DNA of 39,439 nt, taken from positions 1 to 39,439 of IMG/VR virus record IMGVR_UViG_3300042480_000846. The stretch is one strand, 5' to 3'. This document shows positions 2,235 through 39,439 of the stretch, one piece after another. The notes below the pieces were generated by a model. That model made no database searches and was not told where the DNA came from. It saw nothing but the letters and a program-made list of their open reading frames with translations. The position numbers and the translations under genes are program-made. The DNA is from a virus. Position 1 is the stretch's first letter, and every line of letters starts with the position of its first letter.

Positions 2235-4424
2235 ATGGCCAACATCCCGCTCGTCCAAATCCCCAACGCCCCGCAGACCGGATCAACCGCCGTGCCGCTG
2301 CCGGTGGGGGCCATCCGCACGCCCGACGTCGAACTGATGGGCATGATCGACGACGCCAGCTACATGGCGGTGGGCCGCGCCTACGAGAACCTTGGCAACG
2401 CCGGTCAGCAAGCGGCCAATGTGCTGGGCGACTTTTCGCTGTCAATGGCCCGCGCCAGCGACGAGGCCAACCTTGCCAAAGCGGACAGCATCAAAACCGA
2501 CATGGTCGCCAAGTTCGACGCCGAGGTTGCCACCAAGCCGGAGAGCGAATGGAACAGCATCTGGGAAAACAACTACGCGCCCAAACTGCGCGACCAAGTG
2601 TCGTCCCTCAAGATGACCACCCGCGACGGACTCAACCGGCGCGACACTTGGCTGGCCAACACCGAGAACGGGATCAAGGCGCAAGTTTTTACCAGCGCCA
2701 ACAAAGCCATCGTCGAGCGTGGTAAGCAGGAAATGCTTAACTATGTTGACCGCGCTGTCAGCGAAGGGCGTTATGAGGACGGATTCGCCGGTCTAAAGCG
2801 CGGCCAAATGGCCGGTTACTGGGGAGGGGAATTTACCGAAGCGCGAACAATCAAGCTGGAGGAAGAACAGCGCGTCAACACCATGACCAACGTCATCCAG
2901 CAAAACCCCGCCCAGTGGCGCAAGGAACTGGCCAAGTATCAGAAGGAGGGCAAGAACCCCCACAAGCTGCGCCCCGAACAAGTCCTGCAATTCCGGCGCA
3001 TGGCCGAGGGAACCCACGCCCAGCTTCTCGACGACCTCAACAACGAGATGCTCACCCGTCTGGAAACCGAGAGCGCCGCCATCACGAACGAAGACATCGA
3101 AAAGTTTTACACTCGTCCCGACATCGATGCGCCGCGGGAACTCATCAACAAGATGAAGGAATACCGCGGGTTTAAGTATGCCGACACGCCGGAGGGGCAA
3201 GCCGAGCAGGCCACGAAATTCAGCGACCTCTGGCAGAAAATCTTTTCCTACAACGCGGAGAAGGACATCAGCATGGCCGATCCCGACACGCACAAGCGCG
3301 AATACCAACGCCTCATCAGCGAGATCGTGACGACCGCGCCGGAGGGCCAGCGCAAGCCTTTCATGGACACGCTGGACAAGATGGTGTCCGACGCCAACCA
3401 AGGAAAGAAGTCCCGCGCCGACGAGATCACCAAGGGGTTGACCGACCTAACCGGCAAGCTCGCCTCATGGGGCCAACTGGGCAACGACGGCGGATGGAAG
3501 GAGGTCAAGATAGACGGCAAGGTGGAGCGCGTTCCGAAAGACCCCAACATGCAATTGCAAGTGCAGACCAAACGTCTGGAGATCACCAACGACATTCGCA
3601 CTCTTCTGCGTGAAAACCCCGACCTCACCGAGGAGCAGGCGATGGAGCGGTTCAAGGGCATTTTGGAAAACCGCTTGGAAGGCGGCGCTCTCTTCATGCA
3701 GCAGCCGGACGAAGAATCGTGGTGGCAGAAACTTATCCCCTTCGTCATGGGGCCAGACCTTGGGCCGAATGTGATGACCGCCGGTCTGGGCTTCCGCGGC
3801 TTTGGCGGGTCGCCTATGGACGGACTGCAAGACGCCGACGAACCGCTTCCTCCGGTGCAAGGCATGCCGCCCGCGCCCTCCTCCGAGAATTTCAGCGTGT
3901 CGAACCTCCCTCCGGCCAAGCAACCCATCGCGGGCCAGATTGCCAGCATGGCCGAAGCCGAGGGCTTGGGCCAATACACGCCGCACCTCATGCTGCTCGT
4001 CGCGCAGGAATCCAACTTCAACCCCGACCAGACGATCAGCACCTCGTCGGCCCGCGGACTCTTCCAGCTTCTCAACGCCGACCGCAAACGCTTTGGCAGC
4101 GACAGCAGCCTCGACGGCCAGATCCGCGCCGGTTTAGCCAAAACACGCGAGAACATCAACGCCGCCCGCCGCGCCCTTGGCCGCGACCCCGACCCCTTTG
4201 AACTCTATGTCGTCCACTACCAAGGCATCGGCGCTGGGCCTGCCATCCTCAAGAACCCCGACGGCGACTTCCGCCAGACGCTCGACGCCACCGGAGGCAA
4301 GGGCCACGCCGCCCGCGTGATCCGCGCCAACAAGTGGCTGGCTGACATCCAAACCAACCAAGAATTCATGGACTGGGTGCGCGAGCGGCTTTCTCGCAAA
4401 GCCGCCGACCTTGGCATGGCATGA
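2235..4424 (+). CDS. Internal virion protein (T7 gp15-like) with C-terminal lytic transglycosylase domain
   Basis: A 729-residue protein (T7 gp15 has 747) in gp15 position. The first ~530 residues are mostly helical, charged and without recognised motifs, as expected for a periplasmic tunnel protein. After a Pro-rich linker (about 530-560) comes a soluble lytic transglycosylase (SLT) domain, about residues 575-700: the catalytic Glu is E592 in VAQESNFNP, followed by SARGLFQL (605-612) and YVVHYQGIGAGP further on. Such domains cut peptidoglycan locally during DNA entry. In T7 this activity sits at the N-terminus of gp16; here it is at the C-terminus of the upstream protein. The stop overlaps the next start as ATGA (4421-4424), which suggests translational coupling. 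Confidence 0.82.
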   Translation: MANIPLVQIPNAPQTGSTAVPLPVGAIRTPDVELMGMIDDASYMAVGRAYENLGNAGQQAANVLGDFSLSMARASDEANLAKADSIKTDMVAKFDAEVATKPESEWNSIWENNYAPKLRDQVSSLKMTTRDGLNRRDTWLANTENGIKAQVFTSANKAIVERGKQEMLNYVDRAVSEGRYEDGFAGLKRGQMAGYWGGEFTEARTIKLEEEQRVNTMTNVIQQNPAQWRKELAKYQKEGKNPHKLRPEQVLQFRRMAEGTHAQLLDDLNNEMLTRLETESAAITNEDIEKFYTRPDIDAPRELINKMKEYRGFKYADTPEGQAEQATKFSDLWQKIFSYNAEKDISMADPDTHKREYQRLISEIVTTAPEGQRKPFMDTLDKMVSDANQGKKSRADEITKGLTDLTGKLASWGQLGNDGGWKEVKIDGKVERVPKDPNMQLQVQTKRLEITNDIRTLLRENPDLTEEQAMERFKGILENRLEGGALFMQQPDEESWWQKLIPFVMGPDLGPNVMTAGLGFRGFGGSPMDGLQDADEPLPPVQGMPPAPSSENFSVSNLPPAKQPIAGQIASMAEAEGLGQYTPHLMLLVAQESNFNPDQTISTSSARGLFQLLNADRKRFGSDSSLDGQIRAGLAKTRENINAARRALGRDPDPFELYVVHYQGIGAGPAILKNPDGDFRQTLDATGGKGHAARVIRANKWLADIQTNQEFMDWVRERLSRKAADLGMA
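4131..4144 (+). repeat. Dispersed motif, one-mismatch copy
   Basis: GGTTTAGCCAAAAC lies inside the gp15-like gene, reading GLAK. It differs from the consensus by one base (T to C), so it may be a decayed copy or chance. Confidence 0.45.
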
Positions 4425-7400
4425 TTAGCTTCGCCGCCACCCCGCAGTCCCGCGAGGCCCAGCAGGCGCGGACTTACACCGACCCCAGCGCCGGAGCGCC
4501 TCCGAGTCGCCGCAGCGGCTACAACGCGCCCTACGTTGATCTGGGCCACTGGAACAAGGTCTTCACCGATCAGACCTACTTCGACTCCATCGCCAAGCAG
4601 AAGGGCATGACCGAGGGCGCGAAGGTCAGCCTGCATGGCGACGACTACGTCTACCGGCAAGCGATGATCGGCTACTTGGCCGACACCCGCAAGGTGCCGC
4701 TCGACGACATGCGGTCGATTTTCGATGCGGAGAAAGACGGCTTTGCCAAGACGGTCTTGGGCAAGCAGACGGCCAGCGCCCGCGAGATGTTCGACTGGCA
4801 GAAGGGGCAATTTGAGCGCAGCAACGAGAAGAAAGCCGCCGCCGACCAGATCCTGCAAGGCGTCATCCGCCGCAGCTTGGAAGACGCGCTCTCCGGCGGC
4901 GACACGCCTTTTGTCGAAAGCGTCGGCAAGGACATTGATGCCGCCGCGGAAATGTTCGACGACGAGGAAAAGTCCCGCCTGTGGGAAAAGGCCGAGGAAC
5001 TCGACATCAAGATCCGCGCCTCGCAGGACAAGTTTGCGCCGGAGGCCCGCTTCATCTTCGACGCCCTCCAGCAGTCCACCGGACAAAAGACCGGCTTCGG
5101 AGCGCCCGACATGCGCGACATGGCCTCCCGCTTTGCCCAGTTGCCCGACAACCAGCGCAAGGCCATCTACGAACTGGCCGGAGGCTTTGCCCAGATCACC
5201 CAGACCGACAAGGGCTTTTGGTATCAGATGGCCGAATCCCTTGGCCGCGGGGCCAGCGACATCGTCGAGCGCGTGCCGCGCAACTTCCGCGAGCAGACGC
5301 TCCGAGGCCAGCTTCGCCTCTTGAATAGCGACCAGCCCGTCTTCCGCGCCACGGGCGTGGCCGGTGCCGAGTTCAGCGCCGCAGGCAGCACGCCGGTCTT
5401 CGGAGCGACCCAAGGCCAGATGCTGACGCCGGAAGAACGCGAGGAGGCCAAGTCCAAGATCCAGTCCGACCTTGGCATCTTGAAGGTCGAGCGCGAACTG
5501 CGCGACTTGGCCGAGCGCGTCGTCGATCCCATCAAGACCATTGGCGTCCTGCCGGAGATTATCGAAGAAGGTCTTTACGGAGCCGCCCGCAGCATCCCTT
5601 ACACCGCCGTCGCCGCGGTGCCGATTGCGGGCGTTCCCGCCGTGGCCTCCGCGCTGTTTAGCAGCAACTACGACCGGATCATGCTGGAGTATCCCGACCT
5701 TGATCCCGATAAGGCCGCGCTCATCGCCGCCATCTCCGCGCCCATCGAAGCCGGTCTGGAGCGCATGAAGGTCAACACGATCACCGGACGCCTGCCGGTC
5801 TTTGGCGGTTTAGTCAAACGCCTGCAACACCCGAACCAGCGGAACATCACCCGCATCGCCATCGGCGGGGCCGGAATCGTGGCCGAGCAAAACGTGCAGG
5901 AGATCGTGCAAAACGCCACCTTCCCGTTTGTCCAAACCATTGCCGCGGCGCTCGACGCCGACATGCCCGACTACGACTGGGATGAGCGCCTCGCCGGTAT
6001 GCCGCGGGAACTGGCGGTGCAATTTGTCGCCCTCCTTCCGCTTTCCCTCATGGGTGTGGGCGCACTGTCCTACCGCGAGATCAGCCGCGGCGAGAACTAC
6101 CTCAAGAGCAAGGCCGACTTGGAGAAGGCCGGATACAACGAGGAGCAGATCGACCGCATCACCGGAGCCGAAAGCGCCGAAGCCGCCCAAGCCGCGCTGG
6201 TCGAGGAACACGCCAAGCGCGACCCGAAGCTGGTCAAAGCCGCCGCCCAGCGCATCGTGGACGAGTCCATCGCCCTGCGCGAGAAGGCCAATCCCGCCGC
6301 CTTGCCGCGTCTGGAGAAGCAGGGGGCCGACTACGTTGTCCTCTCGCCGGAGGGCAAAGAACTCGCCCGAACGACCGACCAGACCGCCGCGGAGCAGGCA
6401 CTGGTATCCGCCCGCCGCGAGACAGTGCAGCGCGAGATGCGTAGCGTAACCAACGGCATCAACCTCGCCTTGGAATTCATTAACAAAGCCAACGAGGCCC
6501 GCTCTCGCGGAGAGGACATTCAGAAGTTCATTTTGGAAAACAGAGACAACGACCTTTTCCAAGACTACGAGGCCAACCCGACCGAGCAAAATCTTGAGCG
6601 TCTTTTTGAAACGGTAACGGCGTTTGGTTTTGACGCCAAAGAACCCGAAGACCTTAAAAACTTTCCGGTGCTGGCCAGCAACCAAGGCGCGTTGCGCGAC
6701 GGCATCTACCGTTCCATCGTCCGCATTTTTGACGGGGCCGACGGCACCATCGTCATGCGCGACTTCGCACAGGATAACCTTAAACGCGCTATGGCTGAAG
6801 GCCGCGTCAGCATTGACTGGGTGCGCTCCAAGCTAAACGAACTGATTCCGCAGATCGACAGCGAACGAATAGAGCGCAAACTCCGCACCGATACGGACAC
6901 TGACGTCATTGAAGCGTTCTCTGACGTTGCCATTGCTTACTTCCGCGGGCGCATCACCGAGGATATGATCCCCGAAGGATTCCGCGGATTCTTCCGGCGC
7001 ATGGCCGTACTAATGGCCGACATCTTCCGTCGCTCCTACCGTCTGGCCCGTCTTCGCGCCGAGGGCAAACTCGACCGCGACTTTGAGGCGCTCTTGGCCG
7101 AAGCGGTGGGCGTTGACCAGCAGGCACTGGTAGACCGCTCCCGCGAAAAGACCGCGCAGGAGGTTGCGCCGGAGGTGGCGAATTATTCGATTGGCGCACT
7201 GGGCGATGACAATCCATTCATGCATCCCCGCGGAGCCGACGGCAAATACAAGGGCGCTCCGAAGTGGGTCAACGCGCCCAAGACGCGCCGCGGCAAAGAC
7301 GAGGCATACATGCGCCTGCGTGAGCGACTTTACCAGTTGGTTAAAGAAGGCGAGGCGGGACGCTTTTGGTATGAAGACAGCGGACGCGCCGTGCTTCGCA

Positions 7401-18319: not shown

Positions 18320-18744
18320 GCAACGAACAAAAGTTCCAGCGGGTTCTCGACCGCTGGGGCGTGAAGCATTTTGCGGCCAAGGAGTTTTTCTACCGCGGAG
18401 CCAGCGACGAGAAACTCAACCTTAACACCGACCCTCCGGCGGCACTGTGGCCCAACATGGAGCGCACCGCCAAGGTGCTGGACGAGGCCCGCAAGCGTCT
18501 GGGCGCGTCGATCCGTATCACCAGCGCCTATCGGTCACCGGCTTACAACAAGCGCATCGGCGGCGTGAGCAACTCGACGCATGTGCGCTTCAACGCGACC
18601 GATCTGGTGACCGACTCACCGGCCAAGCTGTATCTGGTGCTTCTCGACCTCCGGCGCGAGGGGTTATTCAAGGGCGGGCTGGGCCTGTATCGCAGCTTCG
18701 TCCATCTGGACACCCGCGGCACCAACGCTACTTGGCGAGGGTAG
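18316..18744 (+). CDS. Endolysin, peptidase M15 family
   Basis: A 142-residue cell-wall peptidase. The zinc-site pattern of M15-type D-Ala-D-Ala-cleaving enzymes is visible: SAYRSPAYNKRIGGVSNSTH with H89, D96 in NATDL, and H130-x-D132 in FVHLDTRG. It has no cell-wall-binding domain and no signal peptide, so it depends on the holin for export. The start is GTG, overlapping the holin stop by four bases. An ATG alternative is not available nearby. The 3' end overlaps the convergent integrase gene by 17 bases. Confidence 0.88.
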   Translation: MSNEQKFQRVLDRWGVKHFAAKEFFYRGASDEKLNLNTDPPAALWPNMERTAKVLDEARKRLGASIRITSAYRSPAYNKRIGGVSNSTHVRFNATDLVTDSPAKLYLVLLDLRREGLFKGGLGLYRSFVHLDTRGTNATWRG

Positions 18745-19873
18745 CGAGCGACTCCAGCGCCTTGGCCATCGTTTCGATGCTGGCGTGGGTGTAGTTGTTC
18801 GACACCTTCGTCGAGTCATGGTCGCAGATTAGCTGTCGGACGCGCTGATCGACACCGGCATCCACGAGCATGCTGTTGGTGGTGTGACGCCATGAGTGGA
18901 AGGTTTTGTCCGTAATCCCGCGGCCCGCGCCCTTGCGCTTGGTTTTCTGGCGGGCGATACCGGCGCGGTCGAGTAATGCGCTGAACTGGCGAGAAGCGAC
19001 GGATGCCGACAACTTCGCCAAGGACGGCGTGATCGGCCCCCTGCCGAGCAAGCCGGTCAACTCGCCCACCAGCGGAACGGCGACGACGACGCCCTTGCGG
19101 CTCTTCTTCTCCGGCAGGAAACGCAGGACGCCGCCATCGATTTCCTCGTAGCGGCGGCGCGTGGCGTCACCGATTCGCATACCGAAATACAACCCGAATA
19201 GGCATGCGGTTCGCCACTCCGGCTCCGCGGCAGCAAGGATGGCGGTGATCTCGTCCTTGGTAAACGCCTTTCGGCTGGTGCCTCCGGTGCGGTGCAGTGA
19301 GACAAGTTCCGCGACATTCGTGTCCAGTTGCCGGAGCAGGACGGCCCGCTTCAGCACCGAGCGGACGGCCTTGATGATGTAGACCACTGTCGATTCGGCC
19401 AGACCGCTGTCGGCCAGCGACTGCCGGAACTCCGCGATGTCGTCGGCGGTGATGCCGCGCAGATCGTGACCGGCGCGGACGCCCAGCCAGCGGGTGAAGT
19501 GGGCAACGTCGTTCCGGTATTTCTCCAGCGACCGCGGCTTCGATGACTTGGCGGCAAGCCAGCCATCGACGGCGCTGTGCCACGACGTCTTCTTCCGCGG
19601 GTTGGCGACATTGGCCAGCCGGAGCAGCGAGTCGAGCCTTTGCCGCGCCCACGCTTCGTCGATAGCCTCCGCGTTGCGGGCCTCCCGACCAGTGCGCTCC
19701 ATCTCGTCGGCAACGGCCTTTGCCGCCCGCTTGGGCGTGGTTTTGTGTGGCAGGCGGGTGGAACGCATGGTAAGCCTCCAGAAGCCTCCAGCGGGGTATT
19801 CCGGCGAAACAACCCAGATCCGCATGCGGGCGATCCAATATGGTGACGAGGGGATGGTGGTAAGTGATGCCAT
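18728..19873 (-). CDS. int: Tyrosine-family integrase
   Basis: A 381-residue site-specific recombinase, the only gene on the minus strand. The N-terminus (SPYWIARMRIW and later RSTRLPHKTTPKRAA) resembles an arm-binding domain. Residues ~85-180 form the core-binding helices (LEKYRNDVAHFTRWLGVRAG). The catalytic domain has an Arg in GLYFGMRIGDATRRR, the Lys hairpin (EKKSRKGVVVAVPLV), H326-x-x-R329 (HSWRH), H352 and the nucleophile Y361 in NNYTH. All key residues are present, so it should be active. The gene starts at the edge of the A+T-rich control region and converges on the endolysin gene with a 17-base overlap and no visible terminator. Confidence 0.93.
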   Translation of the reverse strand: MASLTTIPSSPYWIARMRIWVVSPEYPAGGFWRLTMRSTRLPHKTTPKRAAKAVADEMERTGREARNAEAIDEAWARQRLDSLLRLANVANPRKKTSWHSAVDGWLAAKSSKPRSLEKYRNDVAHFTRWLGVRAGHDLRGITADDIAEFRQSLADSGLAESTVVYIIKAVRSVLKRAVLLRQLDTNVAELVSLHRTGGTSRKAFTKDEITAILAAAEPEWRTACLFGLYFGMRIGDATRRRYEEIDGGVLRFLPEKKSRKGVVVAVPLVGELTGLLGRGPITPSLAKLSASVASRQFSALLDRAGIARQKTKRKGAGRGITDKTFHSWRHTTNSMLVDAGVDQRVRQLICDHDSTKVSNNYTHASIETMAKALESLATLAK

Positions 19874-20101: not shown

Positions 20102-20281
20102 ATGCCATACGCCGATCCAGACGCGCAGAAGGAATACATGCGGAGCCGGTATGCCGAGCGGTATGCGTCAGACCCGAAGTTCCGTAAGGCCGAGAGCAAG
20201 CGCAAGGCCCGCTACTACGCGGAGAACCCAGCCTACCAGCGGCGCGTGAAGCGCAAGGTCAAGACAAGGAGAGCCGCGTGA
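20102..20281 (+). CDS. Small basic early protein, unknown function
   Basis: A 59-residue, very basic, helical protein (MPYADPDAQKEYMRSRYAER, later KAESKRKARYYAENPAYQRR). Similar short proteins starting MPY-D-P-x-x-Q/R-x-x-Y are frequent in phage early regions and I know no function for them. As the first rightward gene after the control region, and being Arg/Lys-rich, it could bind nucleic acid; that is inference. Its stop overlaps the next start (TGATG). Confidence 0.65.
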   Translation: MPYADPDAQKEYMRSRYAERYASDPKFRKAESKRKARYYAENPAYQRRVKRKVKTRRAA

Positions 20282-20586
20282 TGCTTTACGAGAAACCCAT
20301 GCAGCGCATCGCGTCGGCGGTCTACGGCATCCTGCTGTTTTGGATCAGTCTTCCGATGCTCTTGCTTGTCGGCATCACGCAAGCGGCAGGGTGGGTGGGC
20401 CGCATGGCGTGGTGGCAGGCTTACTCCGGCAGACTGCAATACCACGAAGCGCAGGCGCGGGCGTGCGGGACTTGGCAGCGGTGGAAAAAGCTCAAGCACT
20501 GGGCCGCTTTCGCTTTGCTGGGCGCTCCAGTCTGGGTGCCGCTGGTGCTGTTGGCCATGTGGTTGCTGGAAAAGGGCAACCGCTGA
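20281..20586 (+). CDS. Early membrane protein, unknown
   Basis: A 101-residue protein with two hydrophobic segments (about 12-36, AVYGILLFWISLPMLLLVGI, and 72-95, AAFALLGAPVWVPLVLLAMW) and a Trp- and basic-rich loop between them. The ATG at 20281 overlaps the stop of the previous gene. Small membrane proteins placed first in an early operon of a temperate phage are often superinfection-exclusion factors, but nothing here proves it. Confidence 0.6.
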   Translation: MLYEKPMQRIASAVYGILLFWISLPMLLLVGITQAAGWVGRMAWWQAYSGRLQYHEAQARACGTWQRWKKLKHWAAFALLGAPVWVPLVLLAMWLLEKGNR

Positions 20587-20646
20587 ACATTTGTATAGGG
20601 GTCACCCAGCCAATGTCCGACCCCTGCCGGTATGTTCGCGGGTGAT

Positions 20647-20841
20647 ATGGAACACCAAGCTATTAAACTCGTTTTGCAAATCGCAGAAAGGGAGGGTTTT
20701 ACCCCATCTGAATTGTTGGCCGACACGCTTGACAGGTGTATGAAGGTGCATGACAGTTGCCAGTATGAAAAAGAAAACCAGCACAAGCGGCAATCGCCGG
20801 TCGAAGGACCGCGTGGTCAAAAGCCTCTCGTTCCCCAATGA
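20647..20841 (+). CDS. Small early protein, unknown
   Basis: A 64-residue ORF (MEHQAIKLVLQIAEREGFTP, SELLADTLDRCMKVHDSCQY). The first 40 residues look like a genuine helical protein; the last 25 are basic and overlap the next gene in another frame. An in-frame ATG at 20632 exists. The 92-base overlap with the ribbon-helix-helix gene at 20750 makes one of the two boundaries doubtful. Confidence 0.45.
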   Translation: MEHQAIKLVLQIAEREGFTPSELLADTLDRCMKVHDSCQYEKENQHKRQSPVEGPRGQKPLVPQ

Positions 20842-20992
20842 CTTGGTCGAGCGCATCCAAGGCGTGGCCGACGCGCAATACGGTGGCGACTTTACAAGGG
20901 CGACCTTGGAAATCCTCGCTACCCGCTATCCAGAGGCGAAGAAGTTCCTGCGCGAAAATCAGACCTTCAAATTCAGCCGGAAAAAAATTTAG
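20750..20992 (+). CDS. Ribbon-helix-helix-like DNA-binding protein, candidate regulator
   Basis: An 80-residue basic protein. After a basic N-terminus the pattern RVVKSLSFPNDLVERIQGVA followed by DFTRATLEILATRYPEA fits the strand-helix-helix of Arc/CopG-type regulators, which bind DNA as dimers through the N-terminal strand. An alternative start at 20765 removes five residues. Directly downstream (21019-21045) are two copies of GGTGTAATGCAC, near-palindromic sites that could be its operators. Autoregulation or control of the small-gene cluster downstream is inferred. Confidence 0.6.
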   Translation: MTVASMKKKTSTSGNRRSKDRVVKSLSFPNDLVERIQGVADAQYGGDFTRATLEILATRYPEAKKFLRENQTFKFSRKKI

Positions 20993-21018
20993 CGGGGCCA
21001 TCATTTTTTTCTGGACGA

Positions 21019-21045
21019 GGTGTAATGCACATGGTGTAATGCACC
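21019..21045. promoter_or_regulatory. Tandem near-palindromic operator candidates
   Basis: GGTGTAATGCAC at 21019-21030 and GGTGTAATGCACC at 21033-21045, start-to-start 14 bases. GGTG and CACC are inverted arms. A third, better palindrome (GGTGTAATACACC) lies at 22238-22250. The pair sits between the ribbon-helix-helix gene and the next gene. Confidence 0.6.
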
Positions 21046-21048
21046 TAT

Positions 21049-21066
21049 CTTCGATGCAAATCGAAG
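21049..21066. promoter_or_regulatory. Short perfect hairpin
   Basis: CTTCGAT-GCAA-ATCGAAG, 7-base arms with a 4-base loop, 14 bases before the ATG at 21080. There is no T-run after it, so it is not an obvious intrinsic terminator. It may be a leader hairpin or an operator. Confidence 0.5.
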
Positions 21067-21079
21067 CTCCACACACACA

Positions 21080-21343
21080 ATGAAAAACCAAAACACAACG
21101 ACGGCCACGGGGACTCCCGCCGTGGACAAGTATCACGCAATCGGAGAGACGGACGTTAAAACAATCGACCAACTCTCGCGTGGTGAGTTCTTCAAATTCA
21201 GCGACAAGATTTCCGCGAAAGTCTGGCGGCTTGGCGCATATGACCGTTCCGCTCGCGCTTACTGGGCGGATGATTGCTCCGACATTTCCAACGGCAAACT
21301 CGTCAAGTCCGACCGCTACGTTTTTGTCGGATTCGACTACTAA
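21080..21343 (+). CDS. Unknown early protein
   Basis: An 87-residue protein with a Thr-rich N-terminus (TTTATGTPAVDKYHAIGETD) and an apparently beta-rich remainder (GEFFKFSDKISAKVWRLGAY, KSDRYVFVGFDY). I do not recognise the family. It begins the run of small genes 21080-22836 behind the operator candidates. Its ATG is preceded by CACACACA and no Shine-Dalgarno sequence, a start context repeated at several neighbours. Confidence 0.6.
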   Translation: MKNQNTTTATGTPAVDKYHAIGETDVKTIDQLSRGEFFKFSDKISAKVWRLGAYDRSARAYWADDCSDISNGKLVKSDRYVFVGFDY

Positions 21344-21356
21344 TTCATCACGCACA

Positions 21357-21617
21357 ATGAACCTCAAAAATATCATCAACGAAGATCAGCGTGCGCTTGA
21401 TCGCGTTTTTCACGAAACGCCCAAGGCCGTTTTTGCAGCCATAGCTTGCAGCGCGTATCGCCAGCTTGGCATCACCGAGGACGAACTCAAGGCCTGCATC
21501 GCCTACGAATGGACGGCGCTTTACGCCAACGAGATCGTCGATAATAAGCCGACCAAGCATGTGCGCGATGTGGCTTGGGAATACAACGCGCCGCTCAACG
21601 AGGAGGACGCGCAATGA
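21357..21617 (+). CDS. Unknown early protein
   Basis: An 86-residue acidic, mostly helical protein (NIINEDQRALDRVFHETPKA, GITEDELKACIAYEWTALYA). No family recognised. The ATG at 21357 is preceded by CGCACA. The stop overlaps the next ATG by four bases (ATGA), so the two are likely co-translated. Confidence 0.6.
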   Translation: MNLKNIINEDQRALDRVFHETPKAVFAAIACSAYRQLGITEDELKACIAYEWTALYANEIVDNKPTKHVRDVAWEYNAPLNEEDAQ

Positions 21618-21883
21618 CAACACAAACCACAACGCTCCCGTCCCGCTGGGACGACGAGCGCGGCATTTGGGTGGGGCCGGAAAAAATCAGCGCGGGGGCA
21701 ACTGCCGCGCAAGACAAGGTTGTTTCCAAACAAATCGTTCCGCACCCCGACTTTCCAAACGGAGAGTTCGTGGCGCTTGTTGACGTTTATGGCGACTTCT
21801 ACCGCAGTCACCACGGATACGTCATGCGTTTCACAAAGAAAGACGCACACAAGATGGTGGGCGTGTCGCACGAACTGATTTAG
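21614..21883 (+). CDS. Unknown early protein
   Basis: An 89-residue protein, probably beta-rich (SRWDDERGIWVGPEKISAGA, GEFVALVDVYGDFYRSHHGY). No family recognised. It starts inside the stop of the previous gene and is followed four bases later by the next one. Confidence 0.6.
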   Translation: MTTQTTTLPSRWDDERGIWVGPEKISAGATAAQDKVVSKQIVPHPDFPNGEFVALVDVYGDFYRSHHGYVMRFTKKDAHKMVGVSHELI

Positions 21884-21887
21884 CACA

Positions 21888-22079
21888 ATGACCGCCGCCC
21901 GCGTCATCGCCTCCGTTGAGCCGCTGCTCGCCGCCCATGTAAAAATGGCGCGGCGGCACGGCCTCGACGAAATCCGCATCCCTCTCGCTCGCGCCATTGG
22001 CGTGATGCACGAACTGCAACACCTCCGCGACAGCGACCGCCGCGCTCAACGATTCCGGCGAGACATCCATCCCATCTAA
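21888..22079 (+). CDS. Unknown small early protein
   Basis: A 63-residue basic, helical protein (ASVEPLLAAHVKMARRHGLD, ELQHLRDSDRRAQRFRRDIH). No family recognised. The ATG is preceded by GCACA. Confidence 0.55.
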   Translation: MTAARVIASVEPLLAAHVKMARRHGLDEIRIPLARAIGVMHELQHLRDSDRRAQRFRRDIHPI

Positions 22080-22093
22080 CGCAAACCAAGCCC

Positions 22094-22282
22094 ATGCCCA
22101 CCAAACCCACCACCACCCGCAAAAGCATATCGATGCCGCGTGATCTGGCCACGGTCATCGAAGACCGCGCCCGCACCGAACACCGGAGTTTCGCCAAACA
22201 AGTCAGCAAGATTGTGGCCGACTTTTTTGCGTCTGAAGGTGTAATACACCTAACCAAGCCCACCCATGAATCTGGTCGATAA
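22094..22282 (+). CDS. Ribbon-helix-helix-like protein 2
   Basis: A 62-residue protein reading TTRKSISMPRDLATVIEDRA then TEHRSFAKQVSKIVADFFAS. The KSISMPRDLATVIEDRA segment followed by a second helix is a clear Arc/MetJ/CopG-like pattern, stronger than in the protein at 20750. Such proteins repress transcription as dimers. Its own 3' end contains the best copy of the palindrome GGTGTAATACACC (22238-22250), upstream of the next gene, which it overlaps by 17 bases. It is a candidate for binding these palindromes. Confidence 0.68.
   Translation: MPTKPTTTRKSISMPRDLATVIEDRARTEHRSFAKQVSKIVADFFASEGVIHLTKPTHESGR
22238..22250. promoter_or_regulatory. Palindromic operator candidate
   Basis: GGTGTA-A-TACACC, perfect 6-base arms around one central base, related to the two sites at 21019-21045. 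It lies in the end of the ribbon-helix-helix gene, 15 bases before the ATG at 22266. Confidence 0.62.
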
Positions 22283-22490
22283 AGCCCGCAACGCCGTCCC
22301 GCGGAACGGTCGCCACAACTACGACCAACTCGTCGAGCCGGTCGCCATCTTGCGCCGCAAGGGATGGAGCTACGCGGACATCCATTACTGGCTGCTGGAG
22401 GAGGGCGAACACATTCACCACGACCCCGTCACTTTTGCCTCTGCCATGTCGCAGCGGCTCAAACACCAGAACAAGAAAAACACACAATGA
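22266..22490 (+). CDS. Unknown early protein (helix-turn-helix-like)
   Basis: A 74-residue basic protein. VEPVAILRRKGWSYADIHYW followed by LLEEGEHIHHDPVTFASAMS resembles small phage proteins in which 'RRKGWSYxxIxxWL' is a helix-turn-helix that recognises DNA or a partner, but no function is certain. It overlaps the previous gene by 17 bases and the next by four (ATGA). Confidence 0.55.
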   Translation: MNLVDKARNAVPRNGRHNYDQLVEPVAILRRKGWSYADIHYWLLEEGEHIHHDPVTFASAMSQRLKHQNKKNTQ

Positions 22491-22675
22491 ACACACTGAA
22501 CTACAAAGTCCGCGGGCTTTCGGTCGATGAATACATCGCCCTGCGCGTGGCCATCAAACAGAGCATCTGCCAGTGCTTCCGCTGGCGGAATACCGGCGGC
22601 TCATGGCGCGAGCAAGCCCGTCACGCCATCAGCGCGTATCGCAAACTCGTTAACACGCGGGAGGTGGAAATCTAA
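22487..22675 (+). CDS. Unknown small early protein
   Basis: A 62-residue basic protein (YKVRGLSVDEYIALRVAIKQ, RWRNTGGSWREQARHAISAY). No family recognised. It starts in ACACACAATGA, overlapping the previous stop. Its stop shares one base with the next ATG (TAATG). Confidence 0.55.
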   Translation: MNTLNYKVRGLSVDEYIALRVAIKQSICQCFRWRNTGGSWREQARHAISAYRKLVNTREVEI

Positions 22676-22836
22676 TGGACTACCTACTCGTCGTCATCGT
22701 CGCCGCCATGTGGCTGGCGACCGTCATCGGTGCGTTCAGCGCCGGATGGATCACCGGCTGGGACAAGGCGCAGGAACACCACAAGTGGTCCCGTTGGATC
22801 TTGGGCAAATACACCAACCGCTCCGTTCGTTTTTAG
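22675..22836 (+). CDS. Small membrane protein
   Basis: A 53-residue protein with one N-terminal membrane segment (residues 2-27, LLVVIVAAMWLATVIGAFSA), then a charged tail (WDKAQEHHKWSRWILGKYTN). It is stop-start coupled (TAATG) to the gene before. Function unknown. Confidence 0.6.
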   Translation: MDYLLVVIVAAMWLATVIGAFSAGWITGWDKAQEHHKWSRWILGKYTNRSVRF

Positions 22837-24871: not shown

Positions 24872-25263
24872 TTACCGCAATTATTAACGGCGACCCACCA
24901 ACCGTCACCGCCCAGCAGAAGGGCGTGATGGTTCGCGCCGGTCGCCCCATGTTCTTCACAAAGAAAAAGGTCAAGGACGCGCAGGACGCGCTGGTCTTGC
25001 AGCTTCGGCAATTTAAGCCGCGGCAACCAGTGGAGTTTCCGGTGCTGATCAAGATCAAGTTCGCCTTCCGCGTGACCAAGGCGCGGCCAAACGAGCGCAT
25101 CCACGCGGTGCGTCCCGACCTCGACAACTTGTGCAAGGGCGTTTTGGACGCGCTGGTGCCTGCTGGCTGGATTGCGGACGACGCGCTGGTGGATCAACTC
25201 GTCGCGGAGAAGTGCCGCGTGGGAGATCCGTATTTGGAAATCACGATGAAGGAGAGGCTGTGA
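24868..25263 (+). CDS. RusA-like Holliday-junction resolvase
   Basis: A 131-residue endonuclease. RusA enzymes cut four-way DNA junctions formed in recombination and replication. The family core is visible: RPDLDNLCKGVLDAL with D84, D86, N87 and K90, then GWIADDALVDQL with D104-D105, and the closing PYLEITMKE strand. Length is typical (about 120-135). The start is ATG in CACACAATGA. It is followed by the replication protein with a GTG start at 25260 that overlaps its stop. Confidence 0.88.
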   Translation: MITAIINGDPPTVTAQQKGVMVRAGRPMFFTKKKVKDAQDALVLQLRQFKPRQPVEFPVLIKIKFAFRVTKARPNERIHAVRPDLDNLCKGVLDALVPAGWIADDALVDQLVAEKCRVGDPYLEITMKERL

Positions 25264-26099
25264 AACGCCCATCCTTCCAATTCTATCCGTCGGACTGGCG
25301 CAACGACTCCGGCCTCCGGCTCTGCTCGCTGGCGGCGCGAGGGCTGTGGGTCGAGATGATGTGCATCGCCCATGAGTGCGACGAATACGGCAAACTCACG
25401 CAAAACGGCAGGGGTTTCTCGCACAAAACCCTCGCAAAACTTGTGGGTTTGTCGCCGCAAACCTGTCTCAAATTATTGAAAGAACTGGAGGAGAATAAAG
25501 TGTTCTCCCGCGACGAAAATGGCGCGATCTTTTCGCGGCGAATGGTTCGTGATGAGGAGATTAGACAGATTCGGGCCGAGGCCGGAAGCAAGGGGGGCAA
25601 CCCGCTTTTGCTTGGGAATTTGGTTAAGCAAAACGGCAAGCAAAAACCAACCCCTTCTTCTTCATCTTCATCTTCTATGGATCTATCTATCCGCCGCGGG
25701 TGGACTTTGGAGGAGGTCATTGCCGCCGGTCAGATGGCCAGCGTGACGCCGGAAGTGTGCAAGGCGTATTACGACGCACGCGAAGCGGTGGGCTGGGTGG
25801 ATCGAAATGCGATCTCGATCAAGTCCATGCCGCATGACCTATCACGCTTTGCATCACATTGGGCCGAGAACGAGCGTAAACGCCCCGCCACGGCTTTGAC
25901 TAAACCCAAGGGGGTCTGGGATGCCAAACAAGGCATCGACGCCTTAAAAGCGAAGCTGGAGCGAATGAAGGGTGATCCGCGGAACCGGAGACAAAAAGCC
26001 GACTGCCCTTGGGAAACGGAGTGGAAGGAAGAGGCCAAGGCCGAGGTCGCCCGCATCCGCGAGAAGATCCGCGAACTGGAAGGGGTGGTGGCAGCGTGA
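25260..26099 (+). CDS. Phage replication initiator / helicase-loader-like protein
   Basis: A 279-residue protein. The N-terminus is typical of DUF1376-like phage proteins (FQFYPSDWRNDSGLRLCSLA, ARGLWVEMMCIAHECDEYG), followed by a winged-helix segment (SHKTLAKLVGLSPQTCLKLL, ENKVFSRDENGAIFSRRMVR). A Ser-rich linker near residue 140 leads to a second, helical part (VIAAGQMASVTPEVCKAYYD) and a charged C-terminal helix. Proteins of this design bind the phage origin or load the host helicase. No polymerase or helicase is encoded here, so it probably recruits host machinery. The start is GTG. One reverse copy of the dispersed motif (25895) lies inside, read as LTKP. Confidence 0.7.
   Translation: MKRPSFQFYPSDWRNDSGLRLCSLAARGLWVEMMCIAHECDEYGKLTQNGRGFSHKTLAKLVGLSPQTCLKLLKELEENKVFSRDENGAIFSRRMVRDEEIRQIRAEAGSKGGNPLLLGNLVKQNGKQKPTPSSSSSSSMDLSIRRGWTLEEVIAAGQMASVTPEVCKAYYDAREAVGWVDRNAISIKSMPHDLSRFASHWAENERKRPATALTKPKGVWDAKQGIDALKAKLERMKGDPRNRRQKADCPWETEWKEEAKAEVARIREKIRELEGVVAA
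25895..25907 (-). repeat. Dispersed GGTTTAGTCAAA motif, copy 6 (inside CDS, reverse)
   Basis: TTTGACTAAACCC inside the replication-protein gene, read as Leu-Thr-Lys-Pro. On this strand the motif can only be read in that frame because the other two contain stops. Confidence 0.85.
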
Positions 26100-26830
26100 A
26101 AACAAAACCTCCGGCTGGAAATCAAATTTTACGCGCAGATAGTTCAACAGCAGAATTACCCCTATTCCAAGGGGAGGATGGCGGTGCAACTCCGACCTCT
26201 GCGCTCCACTTTGTCATTCGCAAAATAACCAACAAAACTGCCGAACAATGGGTCACGCGGTGGCACTATTCGCGCAGGATGCCAACCGGAAAGAACATCT
26301 GTTATGGTCTTTACGCTAACGGACAACTGTATGCAGTCATTGTTTACGGGATTGGTGTAAACCCTTATCAAGCAAAGTTTTTGGGGGTTAAGCAAGTGTT
26401 GGAAATAAAACGCATGTGTCGTTCTGAACCCGCTTTGCCGTATCCTCTGTCACGTTTTATTGCCTTAACGGCAAAAATGGTGGCTAAAGAATACGCCCAC
26501 GATTGTTTGATTGCGTTTGCTGATCCAGATCATGGACACGAAGGCACGGTTTATAAGGCCAGCGGATTTCGGATGCATGGAATGACAAATGCCGAGTGGC
26601 ATTTAGAAGACGAGCATGGAGAAAAACGGCACCGTCGTTACGCGTTCCGTTATGCCAGACGCAATGGAAAATCCGTTGCGGAAAGCAGGGCTGATTTAAA
26701 ACTCAAAAGAGTGCAAACTTCACCAAAGTATCGGTGGATTCGCCTTGCTCATCTAAAAACAAAACCGCGACACAGCATAGTTTCAAAAGGCGAGATTTCA
26801 AGTAACGCATGCGACCATGAATCCATTTGA
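26096..26830 (+). CDS. Mom-like DNA-modification protein (GNAT superfamily)
   Basis: A 244-residue protein, almost the length of phage Mu Mom (241). Mom converts adenine to an N6-modified form (methylcarbamoyl/acetamido) that protects phage DNA from restriction enzymes. The recognisable pattern is WHYSRRMPTGKNICYGLYAN (W56-H57-Y58-S59), then AVIVYGIGVNPYQ, VLEIKRMCRSEP, SRFIALTAKMVAK and FADPDHGHEGTVYKASGF (F141 on). These follow the order of the Mom-like GNAT fold: acceptor strand, a variable segment, then the xADPxxGHxGxxYxAxxF block. The gene is clearly A+T-richer than its neighbours, suggesting recent acquisition. It starts at GTG, overlapping the previous stop. No com-like translational activator is adjacent. 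Confidence 0.78.
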   Translation: MKTKPPAGNQILRADSSTAELPLFQGEDGGATPTSALHFVIRKITNKTAEQWVTRWHYSRRMPTGKNICYGLYANGQLYAVIVYGIGVNPYQAKFLGVKQVLEIKRMCRSEPALPYPLSRFIALTAKMVAKEYAHDCLIAFADPDHGHEGTVYKASGFRMHGMTNAEWHLEDEHGEKRHRRYAFRYARRNGKSVAESRADLKLKRVQTSPKYRWIRLAHLKTKPRHSIVSKGEISSNACDHESI

Positions 26831-38059: not shown

Positions 38060-39439
38060 ATGGCCAATCTCCTCGTCACCGCCCTCAATGCAGGCGAGTT
38101 GAGTCCTTACATGGATGCCCGCACGGACGTCGAAAAATACCGTAGCGGATGCCGCACCTTGGAGAACATGGTCGTCCTGCCCTACGGAGGCGTCTACCGC
38201 CGCGCCGGAACCGAATACTTGGGCGAGGCCAAGAACGCCAACCAGCGGTGCCGTCTGATCGGGTTCAACTTTTCCGTGACCACCCGCTTTGTCTTGGAGT
38301 TTGGCCACCAATACATCCGGTTCTGGGGTAACGACTCGCAAGTGCTATCCGGCGGCTCGCCCTTGGAAGTTGCCAGTCCTTACCAAGAAAGCGAACTGCG
38401 CGAACTGCAATACGTTCAAGTCAACGACATCATGTATCTCGCGCACGCCAACCACGCGCCGCGCAAGCTGACCCGCGTCAGCGACACGAACTGGACGCTG
38501 ACCACCGTCGCGTGGAGCTATCCGCCGCTCCTCGACCAGAACCTCACGACCACCACCATCGCTTCCTCCGCGGCCTCTGGCAGCGCCACGTTGACCGCCA
38601 GCGCGTCTGTTTTCCAAGCGGGCCATGTGGGTAGCCAGTGGGCTATCCAGTGGCCGCGCAACAGCGGGGCAATTTCGACGACCATCGATGCCAATAAGAC
38701 GACGACCGACACCTTGGACATCCAAGGTTCTTGGACGCTGACCACGGTTGGAACATGGATCGGCACCGTGCGACTGCTCCGTATCCCGCAGAAGGAAATG
38801 GACGAGGACGGCGGCAGCGGATTTACCGCCTACGAAGTGGTGCGGGAGTTTAACTCGCTGACCACCGCGCGGAACTTCACCGCCACCGGCACCGAGGACG
38901 AGCGCGTTGGCCTTAAGCTGCAAGTCCTTAACTATTCTTCCAACACCAGCGCCCGCGTCTTCCTTGAATCCACCGACTTTAACTCCGGCGGCACCGTCAC
39001 GATCAACAGCGTGGCCAGCGGCACCAGCGCCGGAGCCACGGTCAACAAGTGGCTGGGATCAGTCATCACCGGAACCACCCAGTGGAGCGAGGCCGCGTTC
39101 TCCGCGGTGCGCGGCTACCCGCGGGCCGTCGCCATCCACGAACAGCGCCTTTGCTTCGGCGGAACCGCCCACCAGCCCAACACCGTCTGGTGCAGCAAGG
39201 TGGACGACTTTGAAAACTTCCAACTGGGAGTTGGCGCGGACGACGGGCTGCAATTCACCGTGGCCTCGTCTGAAGGCAACCGCATCGAATGGATGTTCAG
39301 CCAGAAGCGCCTCATGCTGGGAACCAGCGGCGACGAGTGGACAATCGGCGGGGCCAATAGCGGCGAAGCGTTCAGTTCGACCAACGTGCAGGCCCAGAAG
39401 CAAGGCAGCTTCGGATCGAAGACCATGCGGGCCATCCTG
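38060..39439 (+). CDS. Tail tubular protein B / nozzle (T7 gp12-like), N-terminal part
   Basis: This is the N-terminal 460 residues of the nozzle; the reading frame is open to the right edge and continues at 1-1128. The start (LLVTALNAGELSPYMDARTD, YRSGCRTLENMVVLPYGGVY, RRAGTEYLG) is the classical gp12-type N-terminus. It then reads beta-rich, with FVLEFGHQYIRFWGN and AIHEQRLCFGGTAHQPNTVW, the latter another hallmark of this family. It follows the gp11-like gene by three bases. Confidence 0.9.
   Translation, partial: MANLLVTALNAGELSPYMDARTDVEKYRSGCRTLENMVVLPYGGVYRRAGTEYLGEAKNANQRCRLIGFNFSVTTRFVLEFGHQYIRFWGNDSQVLSGGSPLEVASPYQESELRELQYVQVNDIMYLAHANHAPRKLTRVSDTNWTLTTVAWSYPPLLDQNLTTTTIASSAASGSATLTASASVFQAGHVGSQWAIQWPRNSGAISTTIDANKTTTDTLDIQGSWTLTTVGTWIGTVRLLRIPQKEMDEDGGSGFTAYEVVREFNSLTTARNFTATGTEDERVGLKLQVLNYSSNTSARVFLESTDFNSGGTVTINSVASGTSAGATVNKWLGSVITGTTQWSEAAFSAVRGYPRAVAIHEQRLCFGGTAHQPNTVWCSKVDDFENFQLGVGADDGLQFTVASSEGNRIEWMFSQKRLMLGTSGDEWTIGGANSGEAFSSTNVQAQKQGSFGSKTMRAIL
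39245..39439. repeat. Terminal direct overlap, right copy
   Basis: Repeats bases 1-195 with seven substitutions, three of which are amino-acid-changing codons. It shows the contig is closed on itself or circularly permuted, and that the reads came from more than one variant. Confidence 0.9.

Follow-up and report, generated by a model that had tools for sequence, protein, structure and literature searches.

The window (the whole 39.4 kb stretch of viral DNA that was analysed) carries its first 195 positions again at 39245-39439, and this direct terminal repeat makes it probable that the assembly is circular and the genome, at about 39.2 kb, complete. Because it encodes an integrase as well as RecT-like, RusA-like, replisome-organizer-like and terminase proteins, the record looks like a temperate tailed phage. 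Its terminase matched 380 phage records, every one at less than 60% identity, and searches of 50,697 phage records with gene 1 (tblastn) and with positions 20600-22700 (blastn) found nothing. Between the integrase and the recombination genes lies the module described here (Table 1), in which two genes for small proteins resembling ribbon-helix-helix (RHH) regulators, gene 1 and gene 2, enclose a run of small cargo genes and are accompanied by copies of a short palindrome.

Table 1. Features of the module and its neighbours, in positions of the window.
Feature	Position	Strand	Basis or remark
Tyrosine integrase	18731-19873	minus	Pfam and PHROG profile matches
TTGACA, putative -35 of the gene 1 promoter	20729-20734	+	inferred
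O1, degenerate operator copy: half-site GGTGTAT plus GGTGCATGACAGT	20735-20757	-	between putative -35 and likely gene 1 start
Gene 1, 80-aa RHH-like protein, reading strand VVKSLSFP	20750-20992	+	paralogy to gene 2, AF2 helices
P2, putative early promoter: TGGACG, 17 bases, TGTAAT	21012-21040	+	inferred by eye
O2a, GGTGTAATGCACA	21019-21031	+	read in sequence, pattern scan
O2b, GGTGTAATGCACC	21033-21045	+	read in sequence, pattern scan, relatives
Cargo: four small genes, no known function	21080-21343, 21357-21617, 21614-21883, 21888-22079	+	cargo region 21080-22079, variable among relatives
Gene 2, 62-aa Arc-like RHH protein, reading strand RKSISMP	22094-22282	+	weak Pfam and PHROG matches, AF2
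O3, perfect operator GGTGTAATACACC	22238-22250	+	3' coding end of gene 2
Next gene after gene 2	22266-22490	+	near-identical alleles in operator types A and C

An earlier note on this DNA had called both proteins RHH-like. Gene 2 has weak Arc matches and gene 1 can be aligned to it as a paralogue, but neither protein matches a curated RHH profile above its cut-off. Specifically, the gene 2 protein matches Pfam Arc at E 0.0055 (17 bits, under the cut-off of 20.4) and PHROG 582, 'Arc-like repressor', at E 0.0016; against solved structures its matches are weak and mostly to homeodomains, with the antitoxin EndoAI, an RHH protein, at E 0.075. Gene 1 alone matches no RHH family among the Pfam and PHROG profiles and no RHH protein among solved structures. 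Aligned to each other by hhalign (probability 88, E 3.3e-6, VVKSLSFP opposite TRKSISMP), the two proteins look like paralogues. An RHH fold has a strand and then two helices, each some 13 residues long; AF2 models of both proteins show rightly placed helices (in gene 1 at 30-43, 48-59 and 61-69), no strand in the monomer and modest pLDDT (67 and 61). Residue M6 of gene 1 is invariant in 17 aligned sequences, and this second ATG, at 20765, is likely the true start of the gene; O1 would therefore lie wholly upstream of the coding sequence, and the mRNA would be nearly leaderless.

Sites of the GGTGTAATRCACC type start at 21019, 21033 and 22238, exactly as the earlier note had it, with the first two behind gene 1 and the third, a palindrome, at the end of gene 2. 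The motif GTGTAAT occurs three times on both strands of the window, each time at O2a, O2b or O3. A scan allowing up to three mismatches, with a pattern chosen post hoc, returned 15 matches against a mean of 3.92 and a maximum of 10 in 100 shuffles. A second statistic, the perfect 13-bp palindrome with at least two near-copies within 1.5 kb, was observed once, a value attained by 124 of 200 Markov shuffles; judged on the window alone, repetition of the sites is thus weak evidence. It is comparison with relatives that settles the reality of the site family.

Pattern scans of 2.9 million viral contigs yielded 33 confirmed relatives of gene 1. The window and 21 of these relatives constitute type A (22 records), and the other 12, whose gene 1 proteins are 70-74% identical to that of the window, constitute type C. 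The palindrome GGTGTMATRCACC is found in all 22 type A records and in 0 of 21 others; its 43 exact copies, two per record and one in the fragment L008, are confined to the module, each standing at the early promoter or in gene 2. Type C records have no GGTGTMATRCACC, and all 12 have ACTGTCNGACAGT instead at the corresponding places, namely two copies behind gene 1, one ending gene 2 and a degenerate one before gene 1 (exact at three of these places in ten records and at two of them in the last two records, whose remaining copy differs by one change). These places match between the two types although the distance from the gene 1 start to the embedded site ranges from 460 to 1604 b. A further six records, type D, came from searches anchored on two flanking genes, the one after gene 2 and the one to the left of the module. 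They carry other RHH-like genes and the site GGTTCAGTGAACC, which stands both in the spacer from TTGACG to a hexamer reading TATGTT or TACTTT and within the 3' end of the second of these genes; since no Pfam family matched the type D genes, the RHH label rests there on a strand-like motif and on context.

Among the 43 records compared, GGTGTMATRCACC is present in 22, ACTGTCNGACAGT in 12 and GGTTCAGTGAACC in 6, two types never occur together, and the three records with none of these sites (L168, L173, L184) belong to types chosen as outgroups; reversed-pattern controls gave 0 in all 43. The earlier note had proposed looking for co-occurrence of protein and site in relatives, and such co-occurrence is what is seen, in 22 of 22 type A records and with no record of mixed type. 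It had also held that relatives keeping the genes without the sites would count against its idea. Twelve relatives do lack the literal sequence, but another 13-bp palindrome stands in its place, and the reading strands of both proteins have changed as well. Less can be made of its suggestion that the 14-base spacing of the paired sites fits cooperative dimer binding. That spacing is found in 21 of 22 type A records if degenerate copies are counted (the O2a position reads GGTGTAGGACACA in 8 of 22), L007, also of type A, has a single palindrome only, and the type C spacings are 23 (nine records) or 26 (three records); because the spacing is unconserved, it should not be taken as a sign of cooperative binding.

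For a wider search of types, the best 80 of 587 relatives from a RecT scan were kept, and a repeated-palindrome search covered 75 of the 79 loci L186-L264 (four had too little upstream DNA, and many of the contigs had already been seen), with a detector that does not flag type A, whose copies differ. Type F is a single record, L212, with its module at 300-1710. In this module GGTGTCACAC follows a TTGACA and recurs with one change after a second TTGACA; two further copies are carried by the 3' ends of consecutive genes, the second RHH-like gene and its successor. Its three exact copies in the 38,958 bases of L212 all lie in the module; of 14 other records tested, one, that of L009, has a copy, and it lies in the gene 1 promoter region. 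The two RHH-like genes of L212 have identical RTTIT strands, and in type E both RHH-like genes have a GIS reading strand. At least four module types, each with its own sequence, carry an operator copy within the coding 3' end of their second RHH gene (A, C and D, and F as a single record). The twelve type E loci (L166-L177) have a divergent RHH-like pair at the place of the module, at about 4263-4771 in most, and inverted TTAACAAG-like repeats lie between the genes in L168 and L173, the two that were read. Some repeated palindrome is also present in 5 of the 42 distant loci scanned in L222-L264 (L232, L234, L235, L240 and L264).

Operator copies lie beside or within promoter-like elements. Firstly, TTGACA is found upstream of gene 1 at an identical offset in all 34 type A and type C records, and is directly followed in the window by O1, which had escaped the first reading and spans the annotated start of the gene (TTGACA-GGTGTATGAAGGTGCATGACAGT). 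The second element of O1 in type A is GGTGCATGACACT in 12, GGTGAATGACACT in 8 and GGTGCATGACAGT in 2 of 22 records; type C has ACTGGCAGACAGT or similar instead. Secondly, the operator behind gene 1 overlaps the spacer and -10 of the putative P2. The counterparts in L007 (TTGACG-N16-TACTTT) and in type D (TTGACG-N16-TATGTT or TACTTT) have better hexamers than the window, and in each the spacer holds the operator. Neither a full, strict sigma-70 consensus promoter nor a terminator was detected in 20550-22500 of the window, and the promoters of the window are for that reason described as putative. The presence of operators at or inside promoter-like elements before both gene 1 and the early operon suggests autoregulation together with early-gene repression; the operator in gene 1's own putative promoter is the degenerate copy after the invariant TTGACA.

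Comparison of types A and C further indicates that proteins and sites changed together. In gene 1 the strand reads VVKS-LS in type A (22 of 22 records) and [IV]RKT-LS in type C (12 of 12); in gene 2 it reads RKS[IV]S in type A (21 of 21) and RKTIS in type C (12 of 12), the type A gene 2 of L008 presumably lying beyond the contig end. Thus, in a comparison that spans one transition, serine gives way to threonine four residues before the proline in both proteins along with the A-to-C operator switch. In AmrZ, the strand residues Lys18, Val20 and Arg22 contact bases (PMC3325190). Counted back from the helix-capping proline, these three contacts together fill positions -2, -4 and -6, and by correspondence residue -4 is predicted to read DNA. 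AmrZ, whose beta-strand residues read two short half-sites (5'-GGC) and which regulates its own gene, is similar in these respects and differs in being a bacterial virulence-gene regulator rather than part of a phage module (PMC3325190). At residue -6, gene 1 has Val in type A and Arg in type C, and gene 2 has Arg in both; owing to this Val, the two reading heads of type A are not identical. The two heads of type D differ at -4. Across five module types, paired proteins agree at -2/-4 in 9 of 10 comparisons, and with heads assigned by eye, and the proline itself replaced in two of the proteins (types E and F), only the true pairing among 120 reaches the observed level of agreement. The gene 2 protein of L011 is only 52% identical to that of the window, yet both strand and site are kept.

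Flanking genes are often nearly identical across the types. Pairs of type A and type C records with at least 90% identity number 18 of 70 for the left flank gene, 56 of 220 for the right flank gene and 27 of 187 for RecT, as against 0 of 264 for gene 1 and 0 of 252 for gene 2. From this exchange of flanks and cargo, set against the lack of any cross-type pair for gene 1 or gene 2, it follows that in every record examined the two genes and the sites have remained a matched set. A matched module amid exchanged DNA speaks against plain shared ancestry, although the protein and site changes could be in part a matter of such ancestry because the A-to-C switch is one evolutionary transition.

The copy embedded in gene 2 appears to be under a constraint of its own. 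The O3 codons of the window are GGT GTA ATA CAC C. Across 13 distinct gene 2 alleles from type A, GGT, ATA, CAC and CTA are invariant and GTA varies to GTC only. Three of these codons are rare: over 18 long ORFs of the window, the shares of GTA, ATA and CTA within their synonymous sets are 4.7%, 2.8% and 3.3%. Among the 28 codons before O3, 13 encode the same residue in every allele, and 11 of those 13 vary synonymously, the exceptions being one TTT and a GCG just upstream; in type C the corresponding place encodes different residues and the other palindrome. Because rare codons are conserved while their neighbours vary synonymously, and because the type C residues differ, the constraint looks to be on the DNA. 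No conserved -10-like sequence was seen by eye after O3 in the relatives, which makes any role for O3 a guess, and our guess is a stoperator-like block. In the Cluster A mycobacteriophages, stoperators are sites away from promoters that block elongation (PMC6550527); such sites are many and genome-wide, and here the exact sites number one to three per record, all in one module.

Taken together, these data lead us to assign a probability of about 0.72 to the proposal that two paralogous RHH proteins share the 13-bp operator GGTGT-AAT-ACACC and through it repress the gene 1 promoter and that of the hypervariable early small-gene operon. The central idea of the earlier note, that two RHH genes and their operator family make up an autoregulated circuit over early genes, is supported by the joint switching of types and by the degenerate site in the putative gene 1 promoter. 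Under the proposed mechanism, protein dimers would contact the two half-sites via beta-strand residues -2, -4 and -6 from the helix-capping proline, and bound protein would block P2, the early promoter, as well as the gene 1 promoter, in the latter case giving autoregulation. Gene 2, as the last gene to be expressed from the early operon, would feed back on the same sites, being Cro-like where gene 1 would be CI-like; the embedded O3 would dampen read-through into the downstream recombination genes, and the module would be exchanged whole between phages as a specificity cassette.

Such a circuit may be a lysogeny or superinfection-immunity switch, with gene 1 as the prophage repressor and the operator types as heteroimmune groups, a real possibility that we place a little short of an even bet. 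An integrase adjoins the module, the record has no match to the HTH_3, S24-type repressor or AAA_31 (ParA) families at E 0.001, type E relatives have their divergent RHH pair at the same place, and the types have flanks in common but not the module itself, the pattern by which phage immunity regions are recognized (a specificity cassette differing between phages with common flanks). Against this, relatives of gene 1 and of the gene at 20102 were not found among the 84,980 species of a genome collection (pattern scans gave 52 and 51 candidates, respectively, of which none was confirmed); a winged-HTH protein is encoded at 25131-26096 (HTH_24, E 7.5e-5), though it looks like a replisome organizer; and an unrecognised repressor may lie elsewhere in the record. 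More tentatively, and as something we would sooner bet against, superinfection immunity might come wholly from the RHH proteins, that is, from CI-like and Cro-like paralogues with one reading head, one short operator, an O3-type copy in the 3' end of the second gene, and matched changes that create heteroimmune groups; the common head would then tie the evolution of both proteins to that of their sites.

Known systems offer partial likenesses to a switch of this kind. The immI region of P22 encodes Arc and Mnt, which have separate operators and a divergent layout. It resembles the present module in placing two RHH regulators in one temperate-phage control region; here, however, both proteins appear to read one sequence, of which one copy lies in a coding end. 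The repressor of the Cluster A mycobacteriophages is not known to be an RHH protein. These phages nonetheless share with our records 13-bp sites and repressor-site specificities that track heteroimmune groups, and they differ in having as many as 30 sites per genome, where two or three exact palindromic sites in one module are found here (PMC6550527). Arc and Mnt are named as RHH repressors of P22 in PMC3325190. In the open-access literature, as represented by titles and the starts of abstracts, no description of a two-RHH, one-operator phage module was found.

The cargo between gene 1 and gene 2 varies in content and length, with two clusters common to types A and C; because the crude ORF picker admitted likely spurious overlapping ORFs, which in the window replaced the real 21080 gene, the total of 27 clusters is a sign of variability only. 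Searched against Pfam and PHROGs, the four cargo proteins of the window gave unknown-function families or matches below cut-off only, as did nine cargo proteins from relatives against PHROGs. In several phages the first cargo genes share an N-terminal MNxNTTTATGAGTSAAQ-like stretch and then diverge, and this shared start looks like a joint for cargo swapping.

The RHH pair may be a brake that holds back an early operon for anti-defence or host takeover, rather than a lysogeny repressor, a reading that we hold possible and incline against. Variable small genes with no known function stand directly behind the operator, the RHH gene ending the operon carries an operator, and for p576 an RHH protein is described as repressing establishment genes (PMC8708921). 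As in our module, the Reg protein of p576, of the pLS20 family, is an RHH repressor with operators at accessory-gene promoters; p576 is a plasmid with a single repressor, and the available parts of that paper, which contrasts its own RHH repressors with the HTH repressors of phages, describe no embedded operator (PMC8708921). The acr-aca operons likewise combine small variable early genes with a DNA-binding regulator, and differ in that Aca8 is a predicted wHTH protein (PMC11065993) and no known Acr was identified in the module. The closest described logic is that of p576-type plasmids, whose establishment genes are under RHH repression (PMC8708921), and that of early anti-defence genes under Aca control (PMC11065993). 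In opposition to such a brake, Pfam and PHROG searches tied no cargo gene to anti-defence, and gene 1 lies upstream with a promoter region of its own, unlike a simple acr-aca operon.

RHH proteins also serve as centromere-binding proteins and antitoxins, and the sites might on that account be partition, toxin-antitoxin or recombination elements, or, with the cargo between O2 and O3 differing among relatives, direct repeats bounding an exchange cassette. This is very improbable: ParA is without a match in the record, no toxin family was found among the scanned cargo proteins, the sites coincide in part with promoter-like elements and with a coding end that is conserved, and the exchange joint seems to be the shared start of the first cargo gene rather than a site. 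It is equally hard to credit that the RHH genes are bystanders and a host regulator, which could bind such a palindrome, recognises the sites, as these switch with both RHH proteins while the flanking genes do not, and the records have no exact copies elsewhere.

If the shared-operator reading is correct, the type A gene 1 and gene 2 proteins should prefer GGTGTAATACACC over ACTGTCAGACAGT. The module types would then constitute a natural series of matched RHH protein-DNA specificity switches in which two proteins and several sites move together, and would represent a compact alternative to the CI/Cro design in which operator types predict mutual exclusion among phages. The operator would also flag a variable early operon in uncultured phages, a good place in which to seek new host-takeover or anti-defence genes.

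Two smaller observations concern the neighbourhood of the module. The codons TTT TTT GCG at 22223-22231, just before O3, are nearly invariant (12, 13 and 13 of 13 type A alleles); a frameshift role was considered for them and rejected, as L027 (type C) has TTT TTC GCG and type D has other codons, with L029 keeping TTT TTT GCG. Further downstream, positions 26009-26827 encode a Mom-family protein (Pfam PF25680, E 1.6e-32), possibly responsible for a DNA modification that protects against restriction.
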